The notes below the pieces were generated by a model that ran no database searches, was not told the DNA's origin, and worked only from the letters and a program-made list of their open reading frames with translations. A stretch of 51,656 bases of DNA from a virus. How positions within the stretch are numbered: the stretch's first letter is position 1; each line of letters starts with the position of its first letter. The stretch covers positions 1-51,656 of the IMG/VR virus record IMGVR_UViG_3300020034_000024. The stretch is one strand, 5' to 3'. A program made the position numbers and the translations under genes. Below, piece by piece: positions 2,835 through 48,242 of this stretch.

Positions 2835-3398
2835 ATGGCTAAAGTGGTGAAAGAAGATGAGTTGACGGAAAGCCAGAAACAGTTCTGTAGAGAGTATATT
2901 TACGATTGGAATGGATCTCGTTCTTACAAGGTTGCTTATCCGGGAGTAACAGATGAAACAGCGCGAGTTAACGCAAGCAAGCTACTAACAAAGGCTAACA
3001 TAAATGAATACTGGAAAAACCTTGCGGATGATGACGAAAGGTACACCGGAGTAAGCCGAAGAATGATACTTTTGGAGCATAAAAAGATAATTCAGACCAA
3101 TTTAGGGGACATTCATGACACATGGATAACCAGAAAAGAGTTCGAAAATCTTCCAATGGACATAAAGAGTTGTATTTCACAGATTGAAACACAAACTCGA
3201 ATGGAAACAAACCCCATCGAGGGTGGTCCTCCAATCCAAATCGATTACGTTAAGATCAAGCTATACGATAAGCAAAAATCGCTTGATTCATTGTCTAAAA
3301 TGATGGGTTACGAAGCTCCTAAGAAGATTGAACAGGTATCAACGGTTAAGTCTTACGAAATAGTCCCAGCCAGTGGTAAAAGAGCTAGTAGTAAATGA
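2835..3398 (+). CDS. terS: Terminase small subunit
   Basis: Binds the phage DNA at the packaging start and recruits the large subunit. The N-terminal 70 residues have the Terminase_2 pattern: LTESQKQFCREYIYDWNGSR, then AYPGVTDETARVNASKLLT, a helix-turn-helix for DNA binding. The middle and C-terminus carry helices for oligomerisation (LYDKQKSLDSLSKMMGYEAP). At 187 aa it is a normal length. It overlaps the large-subunit start by 26 bases, the usual paired arrangement. A promoter candidate lies directly upstream. Confidence 0.85.
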   Translation: MAKVVKEDELTESQKQFCREYIYDWNGSRSYKVAYPGVTDETARVNASKLLTKANINEYWKNLADDDERYTGVSRRMILLEHKKIIQTNLGDIHDTWITRKEFENLPMDIKSCISQIETQTRMETNPIEGGPPIQIDYVKIKLYDKQKSLDSLSKMMGYEAPKKIEQVSTVKSYEIVPASGKRASSK

Positions 3399-4650
3399 TA
3401 AGTACATACCGCTTATTGACAATCAATCGCGGTTCTTAGTTCTTTACGGTGGGGCCGGTTCAGGCAAAAGCAATTTCGCGGCATTCAAGATTATCAAAAG
3501 GATTTTATCAGAACGAGGGCATAAATTCCTATGTCTCAGGAAAATTTCAAATACAATAAAGGATTCTATATTTGCTGAATTACAGTCGGCAATCGCTGAT
3601 CAGGATTCTGAAAGCGAGTTTGTAATCAATAAAACAGAACATTCATTTACCCACATTCCGACCAAAAACGTCATTCTTTGTAAAGGCTTAGATGAACCGG
3701 GCAAGATAAAGTCCATCAAAGGTATTACCGGAATGTGGTTAGAAGAGGCCAGCGACTTTGATGAGTTGGATCTTGACCAATTAGATATTCGTATTCGGGG
3801 AGAGAAAGAGAATTACATTCAATACATACTTTCTTTCAACCCAATCGAAGAAACCCATTGGCTAAAGAAGCGATTCTTCGACAAAAAAGATCCAAACGCC
3901 ACTACTTGCCATTCGACATACCTGGATAACTTCTTTCTAACCGAAGAGGATGGTGAACGTCTCCGTTCATTAAAGGACCGTAACGAGCTTTATTATGATG
4001 TGTACTGCCTCGGAAAGTGGGGCATAGTTGATAAGTCGAATAAGTTCATGTACGCTTTTGACCATTCAAAGCACGTTATCCAATCCTATGAGCCTAATCC
4101 ACACCTGCCTTTATTAGTCAGTTTTGATTTTAATGTTTTCCCGATGACTTGCGTAATTGGTCAGCACATAGATGAAACGCATGCGGTAATATTCGATGAG
4201 ATCAAACTCGAAAACTCATCCACGGAAGAAATGTCGGAATTCGTAAAGGCAAAATACATCAAATGGTTGTACAATATCGACATTACAGGAGACGCAACAG
4301 GCCGAAATCGGGAGAAAGCTACACGCGGTAACATCAACCAGTATCATGTTATAAAGGAAGTTTTGGAGCTTGATGATAGGAATATCAATGTCAAAAATCG
4401 AAATCCTGAAATAAAGGACTCAAGAGTGCTATGTAATTCTGTGCTACAACACGCTTCAATGTTAATCACAGAGAATTGCATCGAAACTATACAAGATGTT
4501 ACTTTCGCCACTATAAAAGTAAATCCGATGACAAAAAAAATAGATGTTATAAAGACCGATGAGAAAGGTTTACATTTTTTCGATTGCGCAAAATATCTAA
4601 TAGACGCATGTTTCCCTGATTTCATTAAAAATCCTAAAAAGTATAGATAA
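3373..4650 (+). CDS. terL: Terminase large subunit (ATPase and nuclease)
   Basis: Motor that pumps DNA into the prohead and cuts it. Walker A is GGAGSGKS at residues 26-33 and Walker B with the catalytic carboxylates is MWLEEAS at 121-127. The C-terminal RNase H-like nuclease shows acidic strands in SFDFN (near 250), DITGDATG (near 305) and FDCAKYLID (near 403). At 425 aa it fits the Terminase_3 family. GTG at 3373 is the start: it keeps the ATPase domain whole and overlaps the small-subunit gene. Terminases of this family occur in both cos and headful phages, so packaging mode cannot be told from it alone. Confidence 0.92.
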   Translation: MVKELVVNDKYIPLIDNQSRFLVLYGGAGSGKSNFAAFKIIKRILSERGHKFLCLRKISNTIKDSIFAELQSAIADQDSESEFVINKTEHSFTHIPTKNVILCKGLDEPGKIKSIKGITGMWLEEASDFDELDLDQLDIRIRGEKENYIQYILSFNPIEETHWLKKRFFDKKDPNATTCHSTYLDNFFLTEEDGERLRSLKDRNELYYDVYCLGKWGIVDKSNKFMYAFDHSKHVIQSYEPNPHLPLLVSFDFNVFPMTCVIGQHIDETHAVIFDEIKLENSSTEEMSEFVKAKYIKWLYNIDITGDATGRNREKATRGNINQYHVIKEVLELDDRNINVKNRNPEIKDSRVLCNSVLQHASMLITENCIETIQDVTFATIKVNPMTKKIDVIKTDEKGLHFFDCAKYLIDACFPDFIKNPKKYR

Positions 4651-10241: not shown

Positions 10242-10893
10242 CGGAGTAAAGACAGGCGGGGTTCCGATAGACTTTATAAAAAGGTTTGTTGACGCTTACG
10301 ATATTAAGATTTTCATTGAAACTGGAACAGCGGGCGGTCAGTCAGCACAAGATGCTGCAGCTATATTCGAATCAGTTCACACCATTGAGATAGTAGAAGG
10401 CCGGTCCAATGTTTTGTGTCCTGAAAATGTGAGTTTCTACATTGGTGATAGTTCGAAACTTTTAAAAACAATTGCAGCGCCATTCAAAGGCCAAAGGATA
10501 GTATTTTGGTTAGACGCCCATTGGTCTGAACCTTACGAATCACCTGAAGGAGTAAACGAATGCCCGGTACTTGAGGAAATAGCATCGATTAAAGGCCATG
10601 ACGCTTTAGTTTTGATTGATGATGCGCGTTTGTTCTTTGGTGCCCATCCTTATCCTGGCGATCCAAGAAAGTGGCCTAATTTTCAAAAGGTATTTGCTTA
10701 CCTTCGTGAAAGCTTTCCTAAACATGAAATTACAATAGTCGATGATTATATTATTGCTATACCTGATTACATGCGTGATACGTTCCACGTGGAATGGAGA
10801 GAGAGATTTAAAGAGCGTTATCCGGAAGCTATCGACCGTGTTAAAACGGAAATGAGGAATTCATTGGAGTACTTAAAGGAGTTTGTGCGATGA
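10225..10893 (+). CDS. SAM-dependent methyltransferase-like protein (Methyltransf_24 type)
   Basis: IFIETGTAGGQSAQDAA at about residues 29-45 is the SAM-binding motif I, with the acidic end of strand 2 in HTIEI (51-55). FWLDAHW (93-99) and LVLIDDAR (about 131-138) match the later strands of the Methyltransf_24/cephalosporin-hydroxylase-like fold. 222 aa. It starts a pair of methyltransferases coupled by ATGA, probably O-methylating the sugars built by the neighbouring transferases. Acceptor unknown. Confidence 0.65.
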   Translation: MGYLHNGVKTGGVPIDFIKRFVDAYDIKIFIETGTAGGQSAQDAAAIFESVHTIEIVEGRSNVLCPENVSFYIGDSSKLLKTIAAPFKGQRIVFWLDAHWSEPYESPEGVNECPVLEEIASIKGHDALVLIDDARLFFGAHPYPGDPRKWPNFQKVFAYLRESFPKHEITIVDDYIIAIPDYMRDTFHVEWRERFKERYPEAIDRVKTEMRNSLEYLKEFVR

Positions 10894-12350: not shown

Positions 12351-12511
12351 CACCATACATCGAGCGAAAGAACACGCACAAAAAGCTGTTCAATGACTTG
12401 CTAAAGCAAAACATTAAAGCTGTTGACATTGCAGCGGCCAACATGATGAACCCGGAAGATTACCCGGTTTTCAAAAAGTTGATGGATAAGTTGATTAAGA
12501 ATTATAAATGA
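12347..12511 (+). CDS. Small helical hypothetical protein (54 aa)
   Basis: ATG 12347 overlaps the FkbM stop (ATGA); a longer frame from 12308 would lie wholly inside that gene and is not preferred. The product is basic and helical, with KAVDIAAANMMNPEDYPVFK in the middle. It couples to the GT47 gene by ATGA at 12508. Function unknown. Confidence 0.5.
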   Translation: MTPYIERKNTHKKLFNDLLKQNIKAVDIAAANMMNPEDYPVFKKLMDKLIKNYK

Positions 12512-13296
12512 CCAGAATCCAAGAGTTTCAGAAGCCGATAAAGGTTGCATATCCCGATGGAAATTCGGAAATCTTCGAACAATGGTTAATTGCTAATTGC
12601 GACCATCCGGATTATCTACCTATAAACTGGTGTGGATTTTTCGTGAATAATAACTATGGTAAGGATCGCATTCCAATGCAGAATTTGCAGCGGTTTGTTA
12701 ACGGATTGGATAAAAATAAACGTTGGTTTTCTGTAACCCAATATGACCTAGGAATACTTACGGACATTTCAGGATTGAACGTTAAAGTTTTCGGGTCCGG
12801 GGGTGGTCGTATAGACTTTCCTATTCCGTTGATTTGTAAGCCTCACGGAAGATTGGAAAATGATAGGACCATATTCGCGAACTTTGTAGGGTCGATAACT
12901 CACCCGCTTAGAAAGCGAATGATTGATGTTTTGAAAGGCGATGATTACTACATTTCAACTGTTCATCATTCAATTGAGGACTTTTGCGGTATTCTTTCAA
13001 AATCAATATTCACGCTTTGTTGTCGTGGTTTTGGGCTTACATCATTCCGGATATGTGAAGCATTGGAACAAGGAAGTATACCAATTTACATATCAGACGA
13101 GTTCATCATCCCAGGTCACAAAGATTTCAACGAATACGGGGTATTAATCCACTCCGATCAGATAAACGAGATAGACGACATTTTGAAATCAATCTCAATA
13201 GATCAGATAGTTTCAAAACAGGAAGCAGGGAAACGGATTTATGAGGAAATGTATTCATATTCTGGATGCAGGCAGTTAATTTTGGATAACCTATGA
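12508..13296 (+). CDS. Exostosin-like (GT47) glycosyltransferase
   Basis: FANFVGSITHPLRKRMI at about residues 131-147 and TLCCRGFGLTSFRICEALEQ then GSIPIYISDEF at about 170-200 reproduce the exostosin/GT47 nucleotide-sugar-binding end, with the conserved FxGS, HP.R and RG.G.TSFR..EAL..G.IP motifs. 262 aa, so essentially the C-terminal catalytic lobe plus a short N-terminal lobe. Last transferase of the island. Donor and acceptor unknown. Confidence 0.75.
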   Translation: MTRIQEFQKPIKVAYPDGNSEIFEQWLIANCDHPDYLPINWCGFFVNNNYGKDRIPMQNLQRFVNGLDKNKRWFSVTQYDLGILTDISGLNVKVFGSGGGRIDFPIPLICKPHGRLENDRTIFANFVGSITHPLRKRMIDVLKGDDYYISTVHHSIEDFCGILSKSIFTLCCRGFGLTSFRICEALEQGSIPIYISDEFIIPGHKDFNEYGVLIHSDQINEIDDILKSISIDQIVSKQEAGKRIYEEMYSYSGCRQLILDNL

Positions 13297-43061: not shown

Positions 43062-43170
43062 ACAAGCCGAATGGCACCCATTGGTAAGAATGGATTTAAA
43101 ACATTGTCATGCCCTTAGTTTACAATTGGAGTCTTACCGCTCTGAACGTTTACGGGGCTTTTTACTTTTT

Positions 43171-45369
43171 ATGGAATATGAAGACTTTTTAAAAACCAAA
43201 CATCGTAATTATACTTTGAGTGGTTTCGATGTTGATGAAAATGACCTGAATGAAAACCTTTTTGACTTTCAGAAGTACATTGTTAAACGTGCTTTAAAGG
43301 CGGGGCGTTACGCATTATTTTGTGAATGTGGAACGGGTAAAACAATCATGCAATTAGCGTGGGCTGATGCTGTTATTAAACATACAAATAGATCTGTATT
43401 GATTCTTTGCCCTCTTGCGGTAAGTGCGCAAACTATTAACGAGGGTTTAAAGTTTGGTATTCAGGTTAAGCGTTTTAAGAAAGACTTTACCGAACTAGGT
43501 ATTTACATTACTAACTATGAACAACTCGAAAACATTACCGATGAAGAAATAGATAAATTCATCGGAGTTGTTTTAGACGAAAGTTCAATACTAAAAAACT
43601 TTACAGGTGTTTATAAGAACTTGATTTTGGATAAGTTTAAACAAACTCCTTATAAACTTCCATGTACCGCTACTCCTTCGCCTAATGACTTGAATGAGAT
43701 CGGTAACCATTCAGAGTTTTTAAACATATTAGACGCTCAAGATATGCGTTCTAAGTGGTTTGTTCGTGATGAAGGGATGAATAACTACCGACTCAAGGCA
43801 CATGCAAAAGTAGATTTTTATGCATGGATTTCGTCATGGGCTTGTATGCTTTCAAATCCTGCCGACTTGGGTTTTGATGGAAGTAAATTCGTTTTGCCTC
43901 CACTTAATTACATTGAAAAACGAATCCAGACAAAGCAACGTGAAAACGGAAAGTTATTTAATGACGCTTCAATTAACGCAACAAACTTCAATAGTGAATT
44001 ACGCTTAACAAAGCTGGAAAGATTATCTCAAGTAGTAGATATCGTAAAAAGTTCGACTGATAACTTTATCATTTGGGTAAAGCAAAACGAGGAGGCTGAC
44101 TATTTGAAAAAGTTAATTCCTGATTCGGTTGAGGTCCGTGGAAATGACAATACCACTTTAAAAGAAAAGAACCTTTTAGGATTTGCAAATAATGAATTCA
44201 GGGTTTTGATTACTAAATCTAAGATAGCTCAATTTGGTCTTAATTATCAGAATTGTCATAATCAGATATTTGCTTCATTAGATTTTTCTTTTGAGGGATT
44301 GTATCAATCAATTAGACGTTCTTACAGGTTCGGACAAAAACAGGCAGTAAACATTTACATGATAACCACAGACACTATGCAAAACGTAATAAACTCAATC
44401 AAAAAAAAGGAAAGGAACTTTTTGGAAATGCAAGAAGAGATGAACCGTAATATAAATTCAAAGCAGTACGGTTTACTGACTGACTACGATTACAAAGAAG
44501 TAAAGTCAGACAATTACCTTCTAATGAAAGGGGACACCTGCAAAGAGATTAAACGCATCCCTGACAATAGTGTTGATCTAATTGTTTTCTCCCCTCCTTT
44601 TAGTTCGTTGTTCACTTACTCGAATTACATTCACGACATGGGGAACAATGAAAACCACGGAGAGTTTTTTAAACAGTATGCTTATCTTTTGAAAGACCTT
44701 TATAGGATACTTAAACCAGGTCGTTTAATGTGTTGCCATACTAAAGACTTGGGAGTTTATAAAAATAGTTCGGGGTACACTGGAATGTATGACTTTACAA
44801 ACGATCACACAAAAGCAGTACAGGCAGAAAATTTCAAACTACATTCTAAGATTACTATCTGGACAGATCCTGTACTCGAGATGCAAAGGACTAAAACCCA
44901 AAGATTACTTTATAAAACAGTTACAAGCGATTCAACATTTACCGGAATAGGGATGGCTGAATATGTTACGATCTTTAGAAAGTGGGAAGGTAATCAGGAA
45001 AATTGGGAGCCGGTTACAAACTTGACAAAGCAAAACTTTCCTTTGGATACATGGCAAAAGTGGGCAAGTCCAGTTTGGATGGATATTCGTAGGACTGATG
45101 TTTTGAACGGTCACGAAGGAACAGCTCAAGGTGATGAAAAGCACATTGCACCGCTTCAGCTTGAGGTTATTCATAGACTAGTAAACCTTTATACTAATCG
45201 TGGGGAGGTTGTATTCACTCCTTTTTTAGGTATAGGATCAGAAGCCTATCAGGCAATTAAAGACGGTAGGAAGGCGATAGGATGCGAATTAAAGGATAGT
45301 TACTTCGATGTTGCGGTTAAAAATTGTAACAATGTAGTAGCTTCTAAGGAACAATTATCATTCATATAG
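43171..45369 (+). CDS. SNF2-type helicase fused to a DNA methyltransferase (732 aa)
   Basis: Residues 30-400 form a superfamily 2 helicase: Walker A CGTGKT 53-58, DExx box VLDESS 134-139, TATPS 166-170 and motif VI QSIRRSYRFGQK 379-390. Residues 450-720 form a beta-class N4/N6 methyltransferase: catalytic SPPF 474-477 comes before the SAM-binding FLGIGS 685-690. Other conserved parts are RILKPGRLMCCH and QGDEKHIAPLQL. The helicase could move along DNA while methylating it. No restriction partner is seen, so it may protect phage DNA. ATG 43171 chosen; earlier ATG 43090 is possible. Confidence 0.88.
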   Translation: MEYEDFLKTKHRNYTLSGFDVDENDLNENLFDFQKYIVKRALKAGRYALFCECGTGKTIMQLAWADAVIKHTNRSVLILCPLAVSAQTINEGLKFGIQVKRFKKDFTELGIYITNYEQLENITDEEIDKFIGVVLDESSILKNFTGVYKNLILDKFKQTPYKLPCTATPSPNDLNEIGNHSEFLNILDAQDMRSKWFVRDEGMNNYRLKAHAKVDFYAWISSWACMLSNPADLGFDGSKFVLPPLNYIEKRIQTKQRENGKLFNDASINATNFNSELRLTKLERLSQVVDIVKSSTDNFIIWVKQNEEADYLKKLIPDSVEVRGNDNTTLKEKNLLGFANNEFRVLITKSKIAQFGLNYQNCHNQIFASLDFSFEGLYQSIRRSYRFGQKQAVNIYMITTDTMQNVINSIKKKERNFLEMQEEMNRNINSKQYGLLTDYDYKEVKSDNYLLMKGDTCKEIKRIPDNSVDLIVFSPPFSSLFTYSNYIHDMGNNENHGEFFKQYAYLLKDLYRILKPGRLMCCHTKDLGVYKNSSGYTGMYDFTNDHTKAVQAENFKLHSKITIWTDPVLEMQRTKTQRLLYKTVTSDSTFTGIGMAEYVTIFRKWEGNQENWEPVTNLTKQNFPLDTWQKWASPVWMDIRRTDVLNGHEGTAQGDEKHIAPLQLEVIHRLVNLYTNRGEVVFTPFLGIGSEAYQAIKDGRKAIGCELKDSYFDVAVKNCNNVVASKEQLSFI

Positions 45370-45400: not shown

Positions 45401-45431
45401 TTTTGAGTGAAAGATTAATGTAGTAAATTTG
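45401..45431 (+). promoter_or_regulatory. Bacteroidota-type promoter TTTTG-N18-TAAATTTG
   Basis: TTTTG (45401-45405) and TAAATTTG (45424-45431) are 18 nt apart, close to the known -33/-7 arrangement. This is the best promoter match in the window. It faces the replication genes and precedes a structured leader that ends in a terminator. Confidence 0.65.
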
Positions 45432-45437
45432 AAATAA

Positions 45438-45541
45438 ATAAATATCCTTCATTGTTGTGTGGAAGCGGCAGTGAAGGGTAAGGTTCTGAACAATAACCTA
45501 CCCAGTCTCCCTTCCACGAGCTGGGTATTATTTTTTTATAG
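45438..45541 (+). ncRNA. Leader RNA with mutually exclusive hairpins and terminator
   Basis: After the promoter, about 100 nt can fold in two ways. Form A: GTGGAAG (45459-45465)/CTTCCAC (45511-45517) encloses GGGTAAGGTT (45476-45485)/AACCTACCC (45495-45503). Form B: TACCCAG (45499-45505) pairs with CTGGGTA (45521-45527), followed by TTATTTTTTT: a terminator. TACCC is used in both, so the forms exclude each other. This is the layout of an attenuator; it could equally be a small RNA with its terminator. Confidence 0.55.
45499..45537 (+). terminator. Terminator hairpin upstream of the replication genes
   Basis: TACCCAG and CTGGGTA form a perfect 7-bp stem with a 15-nt loop, then TTATTTTTTT. It ends five bases before ATG 45542. 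The gap 45370-45541 holds only this and the promoter. Confidence 0.6.
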
Positions 45542-45823
45542 ATGGAAGATATTAAATGCCTTCGATGTGACTCAACCAACGACTACCGAATAGAGGAGTC
45601 AGGGCCACACAAAAAAGCTGTCTGCAACAAGTGTAACAAGTACATTAAATTTCTTCCTCAATCTTATAAAACTTTCCTATACTTTGGTAAGTACAAAGGC
45701 CGTGATATTTCAACGATGAAGTCAGATGATGAGCTTGCATACCTTTATTGGCTTTCTAAAACCAACATCAAAAGAGGTCTTGTAGTAACAATCCAAAACC
45801 ATTTAAATCACTTCGACAAATGA
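45542..45823 (+). CDS. Zinc-ribbon DUF3820-like protein (93 aa)
   Basis: CLRCDSTNDYRIEESGPHKK with C-x2-C then CNKCNKY: an N-terminal zinc ribbon. The rest, LYFGKYKGRDISTMKSDDE with YLYWLSKT, is the DUF3820 pattern (FGK(Y/H)KG ... YL-x-WL), which also occurs as a C-terminal domain in some exonucleases. First gene behind the leader RNA; couples to the next by ATGA. Likely a replication accessory. Confidence 0.7.
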   Translation: MEDIKCLRCDSTNDYRIEESGPHKKAVCNKCNKYIKFLPQSYKTFLYFGKYKGRDISTMKSDDELAYLYWLSKTNIKRGLVVTIQNHLNHFDK

Positions 45824-46422
45824 AGTTAACTAAAAGGAGGGGTTTTAATTTTTTTAGATCGTACTATGATGTTTATAATGAGCTTCCCGACAAGGATAAA
45901 ATTAAGTTTATAGATGCATTATTGGACAGGCAATTTTTAGGAATTAAACCAAAAGATTTAACCGGAATGGCTCTTTTTGCATACATAAGCCAAACAAACA
46001 GCATTGATAGCCAGGTAAAAGGGTATGAAGATAAGACAGGTATAATCCTTACCCCTTGCCAAGGGGGTGATGAAGCCCCTTCGATAGGGGGTGTTAGTAC
46101 CCCTAGCCTACAAGTAGAAGAGAAAGGGAAAGTAGAAGAGGAAGTAAATATAATTGATTCTCCTTCTTTTTTAGATTTCTGGAACAAGTACGATAAAAAG
46201 GTAGGAAAACCCCCCACTGAGAAACAATGGCATAAGGTAAAACAATCAGACCGTGAGAAAATCATGCTGCATCTGGACGAGTATACACAACGCGAAAAGG
46301 AATTCAGAAAAGACCCAGAACGATATCTTAAAAACAAGACATGGGACGATGAGATAGTATCAAAGGAATCGTTTAATGGGAATCATTTAGGGCGTTCACA
46401 GTCTTTACCTGCTCATTTATGA
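45820..46422 (+). CDS. DUF6291-type replication protein (200 aa)
   Basis: N-terminal part FFRSYYDVYNELPDKDKIKF then LLDRQFLGIKPKDLTGMALF and SQTNSIDSQVKGYEDKTG is a DUF6291 domain. A variable, hairpin-rich linker (codons about 78-98) follows, and the C-terminal part FLDFWNKYDKKVGKPPTEKQ ... FRKDPERYLKNKTWDDEI is the phage replication-protein C-terminal domain. Likely loads the helicase (next gene) at the origin. Ends by ATGA overlap with the primase-helicase. Confidence 0.75.
   Translation: MKLTKRRGFNFFRSYYDVYNELPDKDKIKFIDALLDRQFLGIKPKDLTGMALFAYISQTNSIDSQVKGYEDKTGIILTPCQGGDEAPSIGGVSTPSLQVEEKGKVEEEVNIIDSPSFLDFWNKYDKKVGKPPTEKQWHKVKQSDREKIMLHLDEYTQREKEFRKDPERYLKNKTWDDEIVSKESFNGNHLGRSQSLPAHL
46052..46105 (+). 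repeat. Cluster of three GC-rich hairpins inside the DUF6291 gene; origin candidate
   Basis: CCCCT/AGGGG (46052-46066), AAGGGG/CCCCTT (46061-46081) and TAGGGG/CCCCTA (46085-46105) lie in the linker between the two domains. In lambda the origin lies in the linker part of the O gene. The first two share bases, so they cannot form together. Alternatives: a hypervariable linker or recombination scar. Confidence 0.4.
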
Positions 46423-48242
46423 AGGTATCCATATTCGAAAATTTTAAAAGCGCAGGGCGTGAGGTAGGAATCGACTACGTTGAGGAAAAGATTCGTGCCG
46501 GTGGGGCATTTGCAGAAACAATTTCAAAGATAAGGGAGCTAAACCAATCGAATCAGGATGCGGCTAACGATTTAAAAAAGACTTTGCCAGGTATTACGTT
46601 TTGCGGATTATTCCAAGAAAGGCAGGCAAAGAAGCTTTTAAAATCAACCGGTTTGATAATCTTGGATTTTGACGGCCTTGACGATTCATTAGATGATGCC
46701 AGAACTACTTTTATGGCCGACCCGTATGTTTACATGCTTTTTGTTAGCCCTCGCGGGAACGGCCTTAAAATGGTTATTAGGATACCTGAAGTAAAAGACG
46801 ACAAGGAATTTAAAACCTACTTCTTTGCTCTTCAAAAAAAATACCCACAGGCCGACCCTTCAGGAAAGGATATTTCGAGGTTCTGTTTTGTTAGTCATGA
46901 CCCCGAAATCTATGTGAATTACGGATCAGAACTTTGGGAAGAAAAAATTGAACAACCTAAGTTATCCACAAATTCACAAGTTATCCACACGGTCAGGACG
47001 GACTTTAAAAAACTATCGGTCGGAGTTGCGATGATTGACAACGCTGAAGTCGGAAACCGGAACAACACAATTTTGAAGGCTGGCAGGCTAATGGGCGGGT
47101 ATGTGGCATCCGGGGAACTCAACGAATCGGATGTGCTGGATATTTGCCAGCGAGCTATTGAGCGAAAGGACGCGCATGATTCAACGGTAAACTTTAACAC
47201 GTTTAGGCGTGGACTTGAACACGGTAAGCTAGAACCGCTGACAAGTGAGCAAGTCGTTGAAATGGAAGTCGAATCGAAGATAGGTAAGATTGACTACCTG
47301 TTGGAAGATGTTTCTGATAAGATTGATGACATTTACGAAAACGGATTAACGCGGGGCTATCCAACAGGCTGGAAACATTTCGATATTTATTATTCAATCC
47401 GCCCGGGTTACACCACCTACATTTATGGCGCTCCGTCAACAGGTAAAACAATTTGGTGGTTTAATGTTCTGGTAAATTTATCAATCGCTTACGGCCACAG
47501 GCATTTGATTTACTCACCCGAAACCGGTGACGCTTCAGAAATATACTCAACGATCATGCAGATTTTCGCACAAGGTGATATGACTACCACCTACCGAAAC
47601 CAGATGAGTAAAGAACAAAAAGAGGAGGCAAAGAAGTTTGTAGCTGATCACTTCGTAATTATTTCAACAGACGAAACCGATACTGAATTATCTGTAAAAG
47701 ATTTCTTAAATTACATTGACGTACTCGAAAACAAATACAAAGTTAAGTTTGATACTATCACAATTGATCCGTGGAATGAATTGCTACACGATGAGAACGC
47801 AAGGGATGACAGAACTTTGAATATCGAATTGAAGGCCGTTCGGGTAAACGCACGAAAGCACCAAAGGCATATTTGTATTATTACACACACAAGGGATTTA
47901 AAGCCTATAGGATACGATGAATATGGAACGGCAATCTATCCTTTCCCTACCGCGCATGATGTTGCCAGTGGTCAGGTGTGGTATCGTAAAGGGTTCATGA
48001 TGTTAGCGTTCTATAGACATTTTGTTTTGGATGGCTACAATGAAGTGAAGATTGGTAAGGATAGATTCTTTCACAAAAGTGCATTGATGATCAGGGTTCA
48101 AAAGTACAAACCTGAAGGATCAGGCAAGCGCGGAGAGATTGAATTTAGATACCATTCGGATATTCACAGATTCAGCGATCCGTTAAACGTAATGGCAAGC
48201 TTACCAAAACACGAACCTGAAGACGAAACCATTCCATTCTAA
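46419..48242 (+). CDS. Primase-helicase (BT4734 N-terminal and DnaB-like ATPase)
   Basis: The N-terminal part (1-175) has the BT4734 pattern: LPGITFCGLFQERQAKKLLK, LDFDGL at 82-87, FVSPRGNGLKMVIRI (108-122) and SRFCFVSHDP. Such domains act as primase. The C-terminal part is a RecA/DnaB-type motor: GAPSTGKT at 337-344, TIDPWNELLH (Walker B, near 440-450), and HICIITHTRD. 607 aa. This is the main replication enzyme here; no DNA polymerase gene is seen, so it relies on host polymerase. Confidence 0.85.
   Translation: MKVSIFENFKSAGREVGIDYVEEKIRAGGAFAETISKIRELNQSNQDAANDLKKTLPGITFCGLFQERQAKKLLKSTGLIILDFDGLDDSLDDARTTFMADPYVYMLFVSPRGNGLKMVIRIPEVKDDKEFKTYFFALQKKYPQADPSGKDISRFCFVSHDPEIYVNYGSELWEEKIEQPKLSTNSQVIHTVRTDFKKLSVGVAMIDNAEVGNRNNTILKAGRLMGGYVASGELNESDVLDICQRAIERKDAHDSTVNFNTFRRGLEHGKLEPLTSEQVVEMEVESKIGKIDYLLEDVSDKIDDIYENGLTRGYPTGWKHFDIYYSIRPGYTTYIYGAPSTGKTIWWFNVLVNLSIAYGHRHLIYSPETGDASEIYSTIMQIFAQGDMTTTYRNQMSKEQKEEAKKFVADHFVIISTDETDTELSVKDFLNYIDVLENKYKVKFDTITIDPWNELLHDENARDDRTLNIELKAVRVNARKHQRHICIITHTRDLKPIGYDEYGTAIYPFPTAHDVASGQVWYRKGFMMLAFYRHFVLDGYNEVKIGKDRFFHKSALMIRVQKYKPEGSGKRGEIEFRYHSDIHRFSDPLNVMASLPKHEPEDETIPF

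Follow-up and report, generated by a model that had tools for sequence, protein, structure and literature searches.

In the phage genome analysed here, a predicted leader RNA with its own promoter lies directly upstream of the replication operon. It is built of two hairpins, the second of them a predicted transcription terminator, whose loops are complementary to each other and could form a kissing contact. The genome is the IMG/VR virus record IMGVR_UViG_3300020034_000024, the whole stretch of which (51,656 bases) is called the window below; the nearest annotated relatives of its replication proteins are those of Flavobacterium, Maribacter and related phages. From comparison of the sequences, we regard this anatomy of kissing hairpins behind their own promoter as firmly supported. 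The leader apparently represents an undescribed RNA family that is widespread at the replication control point of many Bacteroidota-type phages. The best model, which we hold with slightly more confidence than doubt, is that it is a leader RNA whose terminator gates the replication operon of the phage.

Promoter and leader RNA in the window

The features of the leader and of the genes behind it are as follows.

45401..45431, + strand: Bacteroidota-type promoter, with the -33 element TTTTG at 45401-45405, an 18-nt spacer and the -7 element TAAATTTG at 45424-45431
45443..45480, + strand: hairpin A, the 5' hairpin of the leader RNA, from the MFE fold (mean pair probability 1.0)
45459..45465, + strand: kissing sequence K, GTGGAAG, in the loop of hairpin A, the perfect complement of 45511-45517
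45481..45499, + strand: linker with a small hairpin AGGTT/AACCT, from the fold; it holds part of the antiterminator proposed in the initial annotation
45499..45527, + strand: terminator hairpin TACCCAG...CTGGGTA, from the fold (mean pair probability 0.87); the stem covaries in relatives
45511..45517, + strand: kissing sequence K', CTTCCAC, in the terminator loop, the complement of K
45528..45538, + strand: T run of the terminator, TTATTTTTTTA, from the sequence
45542..45823, + strand: P0001, a 93-aa zinc-ribbon protein, first gene of the putatively gated operon
45820..46422, + strand: P0002, a DUF6291-like replication-initiation protein (Pfam PF19808, PHROG 270)
46419..48242, + strand: P0003, a primase/helicase with a BT4734-like N-terminal domain (Pfam, PHROG)

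The promoter is an exact -33/-7 match, as the initial annotation had stated, and its motif is of the TATATTTG type. TTTTG-N17-19-TAnnTTTG occurs nowhere else on the + strand of the window and three times on the - strand, and shuffled sequences gave 0.5 matches per both strands. The structured leader of about 100 nt that had been described behind the promoter was borne out, since the fold of the 106 nt that follow it is much more stable than those of shuffles (z = -4.9, with 0 of 200 as good). Likewise, the terminator with its T run (45499-45538) was correctly placed just before the first gene of the replication operon, whose ATG at 45542 lies about 15 nt after the end of the terminator stem. 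A generic terminator scan, which allows only loops of 3-8 nt, missed the hairpin at 45499-45527.

What the initial annotation had overlooked is the 7-bp perfect complementarity between the loops, K (45459-45465) and K' (45511-45517), and this is the conserved feature. We described it as a terminator hairpin with a T tail whose loop 7-mer is complementary to the loop of an upstream hairpin. With this descriptor the window site scored 31.8, the next best site on the same strand of the window 16.8, and the same palindromic site on the opposite strand 20.0. When K and K' were kept free, the window RNA still folded at -35.3 kcal/mol, compared with -37.7 kcal/mol for the best fold, and the K:K' helix, worth -8.9 kcal/mol less a penalty, is available to docking. 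The conserved long-range interaction is this kissing contact, which is compatible with the terminator. The 5' arm of hairpin A (45441-45452) is also complementary at 10 of 12 positions to the start of P0001 (45542-45553) and could hide the start codon in a read-through mRNA; by eye this pairing is absent in the relatives L031 and L002, and we take it as chance.

P0001 gave no Pfam or PHROG match. Its zinc-ribbon family has the motif LYFGKYKGR, and several family members without the leader carry a different motif, SNQNTAWC, before the second cysteine pair. P0002 matched PF19808 at E 2e-5, slightly below the curated cut-off, and PHROG 270 (replication initiation protein) at E 5e-10. A search with P0003 in the viral and genome contigs gave no close relatives, an alignment search with P0001 in the genome contigs gave no relatives, and DNA similarity of the window to INPHARED gave nothing useful. 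Directly 5' of the leader, at 43081-45369, the window encodes a helicase fused to an N4/N6 DNA methyltransferase, which is found upstream in L003 too. At 12508-13296 it encodes an exostosin GT47-like glycosyltransferase domain (E 8e-13), here in a phage.

Occurrence and covariation of the leader

In viral contigs P0001 has relatives at about 35-52% identity, and most of these have the same leader anatomy upstream, made of other sequences. The loop pairs were read by eye, several being then confirmed with the descriptor, and include AAGTGATGCT/AGCATCACTT in L002, GTAGTGAG/CTCACTAC in L029, GTAGGAG/CTCCTAC in L033 and ATTAGGGA/TCCCTAAT in L007-L019. In L029 an array of six tRNA genes (2982-3596) lies about 300 nt upstream of the leader. 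A search with the DUF6291 protein only gave 80 viral loci, of which about 53 by our own count have the leader, in most cases 10-33 nt before the replication gene; with three shuffles of each upstream region such descriptor scores were almost never reached. Judged from these loci, the leader is not essential to such replication operons, since no element could be recognised at 24 of the 80 DUF6291 loci (two of the 24 being incomplete upstream) or at several P0001 loci (L032, L034-L038).

Scanning for the pattern with one loop type turned up the leader before other genes as well, mostly replication initiators with DnaB-like helicases behind them, as judged from their sequences. Among cultured phages, the leader precedes replication-region genes in the Flavobacterium phages 11b, FCL-2 and FL-1. 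In Cellulophaga phi10:1 the top match (50 of 53.7 kb scanned) lies directly before gp024-gp026, with a primase/helicase, and in Croceibacter P2559S a low-ranked 6-bp contact fits in promoter and position. No such leader was seen in the phages B124-14, 6H and Nonlabens P12024S, or in the replication regions of Maribacter Panino and three Riemerella phages.

The leader also precedes apparent free-standing HNH/NUMOD-type homing endonuclease genes, with loop pairs of 6 to 10 bp (L076:4173-4293; L123 reverse strand 4438-4559; L088 reverse strand 10272-10386; L004:8976-9088). Elements before HNH or other genes occur in L076, L123, L088 (minus strand), L004 and L073. Four genomes (L068, L071, L080, L106) have two leaders each, about 300-600 nt apart and with GTAGGAG-type and TTGGAAC-type pairs, the first leader standing before a small gene of unknown function.

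When the descriptor was combined with a TAnnTTTG-like promoter box and an open start codon and both strands of 3.4 Mb were scanned, 108 matches scored 19 or more, compared with 0 in dinucleotide-shuffled and 0 in reversed sequence; the loci had been fetched for relatedness, so that this comparison tests structure and not genomic density. At a score of 15 or more, 117 matches reduced to 40 non-redundant elements and to 39 after L041, which lies inside a gene, was left out. These 39 elements have 27 different K sequences of 6-11 bp and a predicted RNA of 83-130 nt. Their distance from terminator stem to ATG is 7-49 nt, mostly 9-15 nt, under a selection limit of 60 nt between terminator and start codon. 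From promoter box to hairpin A the distance in relatives is mostly 12-24 nt. As regards a ligand riboswitch, with its conserved aptamer, the relatives share no core sequence beyond promoter, linker and U tract; their linkers are mostly A/U-rich, and the small linker hairpin of the window is not conserved. Searches of Rfam release 15 at gathering and permissive thresholds assigned no family to the element, whether in the window or in the related loci scanned, and gave only tRNAs.

Covariation in relatives, which the initial annotation had named in advance as a check, is strongly positive. When 16 members of one subgroup were aligned with MAFFT by sequence only, 98.7% of the cells were paired, a percentage that is biased upward for K:K' since members were selected on exact complementarity (the shuffle and reversal counts being the fair test), the other helices having been less directly selected. 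Two-sided changes occur in 14 of the 33 pairs, four of the 14 in K:K'. This alignment has a covariation score of 0.338, whereas shuffles have 0.101, and when the partner is shifted by one column pairing falls to about 46% at most. Of all the pair cells, 17 are G-U and 0 A-C, which settles the strand of the RNA as the + strand. Across the 39 elements, the probability of the terminator stem exceeds 0.8 in 36 and that of hairpin A in only 22, under a nested model that cannot represent the kissing contact. A 31-amino-acid leader ORF running through the terminator of one subgroup was rejected as non-coding (codon-position substitutions 66/57/52, unequal ends).

Proposed gating of the replication operon and its alternatives

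In the mechanism that we propose, transcription would start just 5' of hairpin A, as the promoter implies, and hairpin A would present its loop K. Once the terminator region has been made, K' would dock on K to give a kissing complex, the terminator stem would close, and RNA polymerase would stop at the T run, immediately upstream of the replication gene. The terminated RNA would be compact, about 85-130 nt long and with both its ends closed, and may be a by-product or a regulator in trans. Docking may strengthen or tune the terminator and thereby limit the replication proteins, and the leader would thus set the amount of initiator/helicase mRNA made. Since the ATG lies close behind the terminator, and most of the spacings are too short to hold a promoter, an mRNA for the replication proteins has to come from polymerase that has read through the terminator; gating is in this sense implied by the anatomy.

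The kissing contact may strengthen the terminator, stabilise the released RNA, be recognised by a protein or act in trans, and we put gating in cis first. This reading is favoured by the scan (108 vs 0), the approximately 53 of 80 DUF6291 loci, the five cultured phages, the covariation, the G-U and A-C counts that give the + strand, the lack of any sign of an antisense promoter and a terminator stem that in 36 of 39 elements has a probability of more than 0.8. It is weakened by the 24 DUF6291 loci and several P0001 loci without an element, by the elements before HNH or other genes, and by the finding that no competing antiterminator is conserved, which leaves relief of termination without an evident route. 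No signal or ligand for the leader could be identified.

The initial annotation had envisaged such relief as a terminator/antiterminator switch between two mutually exclusive folds, GGGTAAGGTT/AACCTACCC and ACCCAG/CTGGGT, to which we now give next to no likelihood. The alternative helix (45476-45485/45495-45503) can be drawn in the window, but structures that contain it reach -30.2 kcal/mol at best, against -37.7 kcal/mol, and so lie 7.5 kcal/mol above the best fold. Nor is it enriched in relatives: in the 39, pairing between the leader and the 5' arm of the terminator is on a par with that in shuffled leaders (mean z 0.15, none below -2), and in the window its z is -0.35. Of the earlier proposal the promoter and the conserved terminator stand, and with them gating, a ~100-nt RNA or both, whereas the antiterminator pairing is weak and unconserved. 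The own promoter, the structured 5' end, the terminator and a conserved fold with variable sequence would also suit an independent phage small RNA, a ~100-nt kissing RNA that binds a phage or host protein by its shape and owes its location to operon layout. We consider this unlikely, as the terminator lies close to the ATG in every relative (9-15 nt in many, with selection limited to 60 nt), which would be needless for a free-standing RNA. Far less probable is a replication-origin RNA, in which the terminated transcript would make an R-loop and serve as the primer of phage DNA synthesis beside the replication genes. A single element at the replication module, as in the window and in phi10:1, would fit an origin, but some genomes have two elements, some elements precede HNH genes, and there is no G-C skew switch at the element, the skew itself being uninformative.

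Regulation in trans we hold to be rather improbable. In this reading the released leader would use K and K' to pair with leaders of its own type while these are being transcribed from other copies of the genome; leader dose would then limit the replication proteins, as a form of copy-number control, and would disturb phages of the same loop type. Loop types would be under diversifying selection, like plasmid incompatibility groups. The 27 distinct K sequences among 39 elements are in keeping with this, as are the genomes with two elements (L068, L071, L080, L106), which have a different K in each. Three pairs of phages (L081/L144, L206/L216, L116/L165) are 88-91% identical upstream and 96-98% identical in the gene, but have different K and core leaders that are 52-56% identical, which is near chance (45-48% when shuffled). 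The leaders of L196/L205 share 92% identity, and their differences fall mainly on matching K/K' positions (CTTCCAC/GTGGAAG vs CTCTCAC/GTGAGAG). This suggests that distinct loop types are selected for, as in plasmid incompatibility. However, the sample of type switching is small, a handful of phage pairs, and the swapped cassettes could also come from neutral recombination or from escape from another targeting system. Moreover, K and K' are in one molecule, so that pairing in cis should beat pairing in trans unless it is sterically disfavoured. An antisense RNA was rejected, there being no sign of an antisense promoter: 1 antisense TAnnTTTG box was observed in the 39 elements against 5.1 expected, a weak test that uses the consensus only.

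We therefore offer only tentatively the idea that the self-complementary leader of the sense strand constitutes a phage replication type, whose copies would damp transcription of the replication genes in copies or invaders of the same type. If true, a replication type set by the loop pair would be a phage RNA analogue of plasmid incompatibility, and type switching raises the question of whether replicating phages recognise kin through RNA. Gating in cis, the preferred reading, and its alternatives can be tested at once, as cultured phages are among the carriers. The design of RNA regulators could also draw on the elements, whose loop pairs, at least 27 of them and possibly orthogonal, form a natural set.

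Comparison with known systems

In the open-access literature we found no description of such an element. The pR'-tR' region of lambda, with the 6S RNA and Q, gates an operon by a promoter, a short RNA and a terminator, and the leader has the same order before its operon. Unlike in lambda, no Q-like factor or qut site was identified, and the kissing loops belong to the leader and not to lambda. In ColE1, RNAI and RNAII form seven-base loop-loop helices that are recognisable by shape and involve Rop; that contact joins a sense and an antisense RNA and controls primer formation, whereas the one proposed here is within one RNA. The put RNA of HK022 is a cis-acting phage leader RNA that acts on transcription (PMC9378689); put suppresses pausing and termination by itself, whereas here the second hairpin is a terminator and the hairpins would pair via their loops.

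Closest to the leader among known systems are the rep attenuators of the plasmids pIP501 and pT181. RNAIII of pIP501 (Inc18) induces attenuation of repR (PMC4981023), and the pT181 attenuators act by loop-loop contact, changes in loop and upper stem giving orthogonal types (PMC3753616). The phage leader differs from them in that both contact partners are in one sense RNA, that the carrier is a phage, and that neither an antisense promoter (in the consensus-only test) nor a conserved antiterminator helix was seen. At the level of sequence it resembles them in being structured and in having a terminator that precedes the gene of a replication initiator, and it would share an RNA-RNA contact and the control of initiator supply.
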